The notes under the pieces were generated by a model. It worked only from the letters and a program-made list of their open reading frames with translations. It was not told the DNA's origin and ran no database searches. DNA of 64,000 nucleotides from Agromyces agglutinans (GTDB lineage Bacteria; Actinomycetota; Actinomycetes; Actinomycetales; Microbacteriaceae). The stretch's first letter is position 1. Each line of letters begins with the position of its first letter. The stretch is from positions 558,001-622,000 of the forward strand of contig NZ_WJIF01000002.1 in assembly GCF_009647605.1 (NCBI RefSeq), written 5' to 3'. A program made the position numbers and the translations under genes. Positions 10,811 through 61,205 of this stretch are shown in pieces.

Positions 10811-10883
10811 ATTCAGGAACTTCCAGCGCGCAGCCCGCGTGCCGCCGGCGGTTCCACGGCGTGTCGCGCCGTTCTTCCTGAAT
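10811..10883. repeat. 73-bp inverted repeat, family copy A
   Basis: Termini are ATTCAGGAA (10811-10819) and TTCCTGAAT (10875-10883), a perfect 9-bp pair. It sits between the convergent 3' ends of the PaaG-like gene and mrpG. Its reverse complement aligns with copy C at 61021 through the first 27 bases, including an internal GACACGCCG. No T-run follows, so it is not a canonical intrinsic terminator. Confidence 0.75.
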
Positions 10884-19709: not shown

Positions 19710-19782
19710 GTGCAGGAATTCCGCTGCACGGCTCGGCGCGGCGGGGCGTGACACGCCGCCGATCAGCGAGGAATTCCTGAAC
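19710..19782. repeat. 73-bp inverted repeat, family copy B
   Basis: The left end GTGCAGGAATTCC and right end GGAATTCCTGAAC share a perfect 10-bp pair (CAGGAATTCC with GGAATTCCTG). It lies between the convergent ends of the sulfurtransferase and methyltransferase genes. Outer length is exactly 73 bp, as in copies A and C. An internal TGACACGCCG resembles the GACACGCCG of those copies. Confidence 0.75.
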
Positions 19783-61020: not shown

Positions 61021-61093
61021 ATTCAGGAAGATCTCGATGACACGCCGGGTGACGCGCGATCGTCCGCGGCGCGTCGACCGATTCTTCCTGAAC
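61021..61093. repeat. 73-bp inverted repeat, family copy C
   Basis: The left end ATTCAGGAAGA and the right end TTCTTCCTGAAC share a perfect 10-bp pair (TTCAGGAAGA with TCTTCCTGAA). GACACGCCG follows the left arm after eight bases and resembles the inner part of copy A (reverse complement). It lies in the 284-bp gap downstream of the LacI gene and is immediately followed by a tandem repeat. Confidence 0.75.
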
Positions 61094-61094
61094 T

Positions 61095-61205
61095 GCGGGG
61101 CGCGGTGAAGGCGAGCGGGGCGGGGTGAGGGCGGGCGGGGCGCGGTGAGGCGAGCGGGGTGCGGTGAAGGCGAGCGGGGCGCGGTGGAGGCGGGCGGGGC
61201 GCTGA
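61095..61205. repeat. Tandem array of about 20-bp units downstream of the LacI gene
   Basis: Five full units (61095, 61115, 61135, 61154, 61174) and a partial sixth match the pattern GCGGGG-GCGGTGAAGGCG with small changes; the third is 19 bp. The array abuts the inverted repeat at 61021-61093 and ends 5 bp before the LacI stop codon. GGTGA runs give it a strong purine bias on the plus strand. Confidence 0.85.

Follow-up and report, generated by a model that had tools for sequence, protein, structure and literature searches.

The window, i.e. the whole stretch of 64,000 nucleotides that was analysed here (contig C12, positions 558001-622000, of the Agromyces agglutinans genome designated G000), contains three copies of a short mirrored element (Table 1). 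Copy A is located between the convergent genes for an enoyl-CoA hydratase and MnhG, and copy B between convergent genes for a rhodanese and a methyltransferase-like protein. A preliminary description of this DNA had reported the three copies at these places, where all of them are present, and had assigned them to gene 3′ ends with two between convergent genes. This is correct for the convergent settings of A and B; copy C lies between two minus-strand open reading frames, one encoding a LacI-type regulator and the other without a Pfam match. Of the exact 73 bp given there the constant length can be retained; the frame that recurs is 71 bp, and the extra base on each side is not always paired (A versus C in copy C). 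The compensatory end change that had also been proposed was not found in clean form because the ends of copy B carry one mismatch (TGCAGGAA versus TTCAGGAA). A tandem repeat with a G-rich unit of about 20 bp (positions 61095-61202 of the window) adjoins copy C. In a generic repeat search of the window the element was absent among the 20 repeat families listed.

Table 1. Positions of the three mirrored elements and of their parts in the window.
Feature	Position	Strand	Basis
Copy A (element of 71 bp; IO, i.e. mixed orientation of the inner motifs)	10812..10882	.	end and inner-motif searches
Outer arm TTCAGGAA of copy A	10812..10819	+	sequence
Left inner motif CCGCGTGCC of copy A, 7/9 of CGGCGTGTC, offset 24-32	10835..10843	+	
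Right inner motif CGGCGTGTC of copy A, 9/9, offset 46-54	10857..10865	+	
Second outer arm of copy A, TTCAGGAA on the minus strand	10875..10882	-	sequence
Copy B (element of 71 bp; OO inner motifs; TGCAGGAA as one arm)	19711..19781	.	
Left inner motif CGGCGCGGC of copy B, 7/9	19734..19742	+	
Right inner motif of copy B, GACACGCCG on the plus strand, 9/9	19750..19758	-	
Copy C (element of 71 bp; II inner motifs)	61022..61092	.	
Left inner motif of copy C, GACACGCCG on the plus strand, 9/9	61039..61047	-	
Right inner motif of copy C, CGGCGCGTC, 8/9	61067..61075	+	

The entire genome of A. agglutinans (3.9 Mb) comprises about 16 copies of this family, with the outer inverted repeat TTCAGGAA…TTCCTGAA. 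This number is derived from searches with the pair of ends. Exact pairs with a free gap of 30-60 occur 13 times (twelve with a span of 71 bp and one with 70 bp; none in the reversed control), and a fixed gap of 55 with at most one mismatch gives 15 (control 0), a 16th match with two mismatches and without inner motif being excluded from this count. Among 100 related genomes the pattern was detected in nine, all of which belong to the 60 genomes of the same genus, and the reversed control of this search gave one match each in three of the 40 non-genus genomes and none within the genus. The suggestion of a defined family with a constant length and conserved ends is supported by further copies in the same and in related genomes. 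The rule followed by the inner motifs, the genome-specific ends and the partner nuclease gene described below go beyond the initial observations.

The anatomy of the element was derived from 39 copies selected by their ends. Except in neighbouring pairs their interiors are mostly unlike, apart from one conserved motif of 9-10 bp per half; a few bases beside the arms are also partly conserved. The motif CGGCGTGTC occupies positions 24-32 counted from its end, or positions 18-26 when it is inverted, and at least 7/9 of it are matched in 97% of the 78 halves as compared to 3% of shuffled interiors. The inner sequence GACACGCCG that had been noticed as common to the copies is therefore real. Orientations were counted with a permitted shift of one base in 38 elements, one from G002 being dropped (one half 5/9): 16 were OO, 16 IO and 6 II, and a random combination would give 15.2, 17.7 and 5.2. 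The mix differs by genome (G000: six II, five OO, four IO; G047: nine IO, five OO), and the window holds all three classes. In IO copies the mirror pairing of the inner region is low (0.35), and as the orientations are independent, the inner motifs of 16 of the 38 copies are unable to pair mutually. A search with the inner pair only gave matches in 15 of the 60 Agromyces genomes, and on reading outwards the 71-bp frame is evident at 13 of the 15 loci found in this way. Of the other two, L033 has the inner pair without ends in this frame and L037 has a different frame. In L037 (G046 C1:300400-300424) the inner pair is enclosed by GTACGCAATTCAGGTTC, an outer palindrome of greater length, with an offset unlike that of the 71-bp frame; perhaps it is a related element of another length.

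The fixed offsets and freely oriented inner motifs make the element look like a recognition site in DNA, and binding by a protein would explain why the offsets are fixed while the orientation is free. A structured RNA element had originally been proposed as one possibility, and bidirectional terminators or RNA structures at gene 3′ ends are a rival explanation. The outer arms are complementary and change in step between genomes, many copies are located at gene ends, and all six copies that were folded as RNA outdid most or all of their shuffled versions (three beat 200 of 200, the others 188 to 197 of 200). This good folding is due to pairing of the outer arms, to which consistent pairing is limited; none is kept through the element. 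An RNA hairpin does not explain inner motifs whose orientations combine at random. Moreover, Rfam has no match in the window, copy A (the only copy scanned) shows no terminator-like site in its surroundings, and symmetric ends are equally well explained by one protein that reads both of them. Structured RNA as main constraint was rejected on the basis of the orientation-free motifs, the empty Rfam result and the scan of copy A, and we regard the terminator or RNA reading as very improbable.

In other species the same element has other ends, which are often extended outward by more complementary bases; their arm types include TGCAGGAA and GGGAGGAA. The two arms of a copy usually match: among 83 distinct copies the agreement is 8/8 in 56, 7/8 in 24 and 6/8 in 3, in a set for which a minimum of 6/8 and the 71-bp frame were imposed, so that it alone is no proof of the length. 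Most genomes have one dominant outer arm, namely TTCAG in G000 (28 of 30 arms), G047 (8 of 8) and G011 (13 of 16), CTCAG in G039 (47 of 52), GGGAG in G035 (16 of 16), TGCAG in G048 (11 of 14) and ATCAG in G004 (7 of 8). Some copies of G048 and G039 have unlike arms. A joint change of both arms between genomes would follow if both ends are read by a single protein. Regarding their position, 79 copies were assigned to gene contexts by a home-made, rough gene caller (some were flagged as overlapping an open reading frame), and 31 of them lie between convergent, 38 between tandem and 10 between divergent genes, four more being unclassified. In four species an element is found in frame within the coding part of a gene for a LysE-type translocator, between conserved segments (L010, L022, L020 and L042 in G000, G047, G046 and G038, respectively; PF01810 with E 1.2e-41 for L022). 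These copies are reminiscent of the Rickettsia palindromic elements, which occur inside genes.

Comparison of all flanks against each other revealed one gene that lies beside an element in seven genomes. In A. agglutinans it is located outside the window on contig C2 (47225-48154) between two elements, and the homologs of this genome are distributed over contigs C2, C7 and C20. Orthologs with 43-100% identity are present in 16 of the 60 Agromyces genomes. In 14 of the 16 the distance from the homology match to a strict 71-bp element is at most 350 bp, and 11 have such elements on both sides; the 5′ side carries it in all 14 orthologs that have any and the 3′ side in 11 of the 16, and the remaining orthologs (L089, L100) have looser palindromes only. 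In G000, G047, G039, G035, G048 and G004 the gene is bordered by the dominant arm type of the respective genome.

The encoded protein is likely an AbiEi-like domain fused to a nuclease of the Vsr/DUF559 type. Its N-terminal domain resembles AbiEi weakly: the Pfam match is below the cut-off in two clade A proteins, missing in a third and above the cut-off in the paralog L101, and PADLOC gave AbiEi matches in four of four. The C-terminal domain resembles MTES_1575/DUF559, with weak Pfam matches in clade A and DUF559 above the cut-off in L101 and L108. Residues E205, D232, D244, H249 and D258 are invariant in 29 homologs and E242 is nearly so; these six we take to be the catalytic residues of a Vsr/DUF559-type nuclease. 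A search of the PDB with the protein profile gave 3hrl with E 3.6e-6 and 3r3p (I-Bth0305I) with a non-significant E of 0.21. The predicted structure is poor (mean pLDDT 59) and a fold search with this model gave weak matches, none reaching E 0.001, so that the likeness to the nuclease fold rests on the profile search. NCBIfam provided no usable name for the five proteins tried.

Within the genus, gene and elements occur together. Counts were made with a generalised half-element pattern on both strands (reversed controls gave 2 hits in all), which means that one OO element can score twice, and they range from 0 to 78 hits per genome. At least three hits were found in 15 of the 16 genomes with the gene as compared to 5 of the 44 without it (Fisher p about 4e-9), and any hit in 15 of 16 and 9 of 44, respectively. 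The exception among the former, G007, has the gene and a variant core, ATGAGGCA, which the half-pattern cannot match. The five genomes with at least three hits in which the gene was undetected are G014, G029, G046, G019 and G009; absence from G014 is uncertain because its assembly consists of 840 contigs and the usual locus was not found there either. By its coordinates the gene lies at one and the same locus in many species, which indicates mostly vertical inheritance. Carriage by phages was rejected, as none of the 27 pattern stretches in the one viral-contig scan encodes a relative.

Several observations bear on spreading of the elements. In 9 of 14 neighbouring pairs the elements are 142-257 bp apart, directly oriented and 82-97% identical, and the flanks mostly fall to background similarity within 10-30 bp (the similarity is longer in L049 and patchy in L023). 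Three other neighbouring pairs are 68-80% alike. In L053 (G039, 799-1331) three elements at exact intervals of 231 bp with nearly identical spacers form a small array, apparently a 231-bp unit duplicated in tandem. As the interiors of most copies differ, most copies are old. One orthologous intergenic site is occupied by element, gene and element in G035 and by a solo element in G011, where the nuclease gene lies nearby, past the next gene; the same site, read by eye, is without element and gene in G054, G057, G030, G009, G049, G037 and G040, with flanks too diverged for a target-site duplication to be read. Given one ancestral gene locus, empty and solo states may be losses, and losses may account for part of the occupied, solo and empty pattern. 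For the idea of a mobile element this support is indirect: it consists of similar neighbouring copies in unlike flanks and of the three states of one site.

Short, dispersed palindromes with sharp ends in neighbouring pairs could also belong to an insertion sequence, as ordinary MITEs, or to a RAYT transposase, as REPs. The Y1/HUH transposase domain (PF01797) was found in none of the 60 Agromyces genomes, whereas 5 of 14 control genomes were positive, and the RAYT/REP candidate was rejected for this reason. In addition, a GTAG-type tetranucleotide is absent among the conserved positions, which are the outer arm and CGGCGTGTC over a span of 71 bp, most copies apart from neighbouring pairs are unlike in their interior, and the gene between the elements is that of a nuclease. 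We consider an origin of this kind extremely improbable.

Related genes often have palindromes of their own. At E 1e-20 homologs of the nuclease are present in 105 of 150 sampled Microbacteriaceae genomes and in 63 of 85 genera, and a search of the phylum gave at least 7 of 296, with at most seven candidates scored per genome. Among 14 paralogs at 30-36% identity, 10 have loci that are positive in a general palindrome test, with palindromes that differ in sequence and span (CTTTTCAGGAG, 127-128 bp; CAGGATGAGC, 60-66 bp). In the protein tree, in which some forks are unsupported and deep branches are long, the type with 127-128 bp corresponds to a supported clade, and TGCAGGAACTTCC together with its variants to a second one. 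An inverted repeat of at least 13 was detected near 32 of 57 gene loci, compared to 6 of 200 random positions of the window and 1 of 31 other window genes, and a word of at least 15 common to both flanks at 25 of 57, 3 of 200 and 2 of 31, respectively. Either test was passed by 37 of the 57 gene loci (8 of 16 orthologs, 10 of 14 paralogs and 19 of 27 family loci), by 8 of the 200 random positions, which are mostly coding, and by 3 of the 31 window genes, which are the better albeit smaller control. The remaining 20 loci, e.g. L106, L126, L128 and L130, fail both tests. From 58 loci L153 was dropped (contig end), and L124-L125 (repeats of G000 and G004) as well as L115-L123 were excluded.

The same palindrome flanks the gene on both sides in L139, L142, L144, L147 and L149. 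In a second genus one pattern was positive in two of four genomes with 6 and 9 matches, i.e. six distinct places each after merging of nested matches, of which one and two, respectively, border the nuclease gene. A. agglutinans itself has two further homologous genes beside their own 72-bp palindromes, L196 (C20:138895-139731) with TCGAGTTCGCAGGATGAG and L202 (C7:61607-62173) with GCGAGGTGAAGGAGATTCCGGG, inside of which CGGCGTGTC occurs. A distant homolog from another family of the class (L191 in G526) lies between 73-bp palindromes (994-1066 and 2114-2186) with a quite different arm, GATCGTACTGACCCGTAT, and this suggests that the pairing of gene and palindrome reaches beyond Microbacteriaceae.

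On the basis of these comparisons we consider it rather probable that the nuclease recognises and spreads, or once spread, its palindromes. The 71-bp elements would then be the recognition sites, as double-stranded DNA or as cruciform, of a cognate AbiEi-like and Vsr/DUF559-type nuclease. Each half-site would consist of the outer arm and one inner motif, and since two half-sites are mirrored, one element is probably bound by a protein complex that is itself symmetric. We infer that the N-terminal domain reads the motifs and that the nuclease cuts at or near the element ends; cutting followed by repair could have copied elements to new sites, mostly at gene ends. The life cycle would resemble that of a REPtron in having a stable nuclease gene and non-autonomous palindromes in dispersed positions, but the enzyme behind it would be an unrelated one.

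The main rival is an autoregulatory AbiEi-like DNA-binding protein with the palindromes as operators and the dispersed copies as regulon or decoys, its nuclease domain being otherwise employed, e.g. in defence. The AbiEi matches at the N-terminus are in line with this, as is the 5′ position of an element in all 14 orthologs with a strict one. Fixed spacing with free orientation also suits protein binding, and 23-bp inverted repeats, arranged in pairs in their own promoter, are bound by known AbiEi proteins (PMC7319586). However, 11 of 16 orthologs also have a strict element 3′ of the gene, only 10 of the 79 copies classified by the rough gene caller lie between divergent genes (31 convergent, 38 tandem), and one copy is situated within a coding region in four species. 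Like copies side by side in unlike flanks and the conserved nuclease residues also speak against operators, and we consider this explanation unlikely, though still ahead of a third one. This holds that the elements are chromosomal sites useful to the host (in nucleoid organisation, repair or strand processing) on which the nuclease acts as a domesticated host enzyme. It is in agreement with a gene kept at one locus in many species and with constrained motifs in free interiors, but the gene occurs in just 16 of the 60 genomes of the genus, is cleanly absent from the same locus in some species, and half-pattern hits (both strands counted) vary from 0 to 78 per genome, which makes a host function of this kind quite doubtful.

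Returning to recognition and spreading by the nuclease, the data suggest an unrecognised pair of repeat and nuclease that may be self-spreading. Whether it represents a widespread and unrecognised class of elements in Actinobacteria, in which AbiEi-like and Vsr-type nucleases own, read and propagate private palindrome families as an independent counterpart of REP/RAYT, with nuclease and palindrome co-diversifying, we regard as evenly balanced. If the homologs of this protein are palindrome-specific nucleases, a testable function could be assigned to numerous genes that are poorly named at present, the dispersed repeats of these high-GC Gram-positives would have an owner, and REP-like systems would have originated with an enzyme that has no relation to HUH transposases. 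Many natural pairs of protein and site would be available as well, in which changes of specificity can be read. In the open-access literature nothing was retrieved for DUF559 with inverted repeats, and for DUF559 with palindromic only seemingly unrelated work, judged by title and beginning of the abstract; a prior description may exist.

Among known systems, the parts of the protein are found in two. The AbiE type IV toxin-antitoxin systems share, by a weak match, a similar N-terminal domain in their antitoxin AbiEi, which binds paired 23-bp inverted repeats and bends DNA (PMC7319586); binding of a mirrored element by the AbiEi-like domain is therefore plausible, and the same fact is the basis of the regulator hypothesis. 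The Agromyces protein differs from AbiEi by the added C-terminal nuclease-like domain, and its repeats are dispersed and located on both sides of the gene. MTES_1575 is described (PMC3710099) as a novel Vsr restriction endonuclease and, with DUF559, as a family of Vsr-fold nucleases. The MTES_1575/DUF559 enzymes and the EDxHD homing endonuclease I-Bth0305I resemble the Agromyces protein in their conserved residues and match it weakly by profile or fold, but the Agromyces gene lies between palindromes that are also found on their own.

The closest analogy of the whole arrangement is that with the REPtron (REP/BIME with the RAYT transposase TnpAREP) and the TIRtron/TIRYT. Three articles (PMC3733652, PMC6006769, PMC8266576) depict the gene of a REPtron as stable and bordered by palindromes of its own, with one palindrome family per gene, and REP copies as dispersed mostly between convergent or tandem genes, paired and clustered, with some inside genes. 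The Agromyces gene and its elements follow the same plan with dispersed copies mostly at gene ends, and flanking by own dispersed palindromes applies to 14 of 16 orthologs, in 11 of 16 on both sides. In contrast, the enzyme of REPtrons is an HUH tyrosine transposase and that of Agromyces combines an AbiEi-like domain with a Vsr/DUF559-type nuclease. A GTAG-type tetranucleotide at the foot of a palindrome of 20-40 bp is opposed to a mirrored element of 71 bp that has no GTAG and two orientation-free inner motifs. Judged by its plan the system would be a variant of the REPtron; its parts are unrelated to those of REPtrons.
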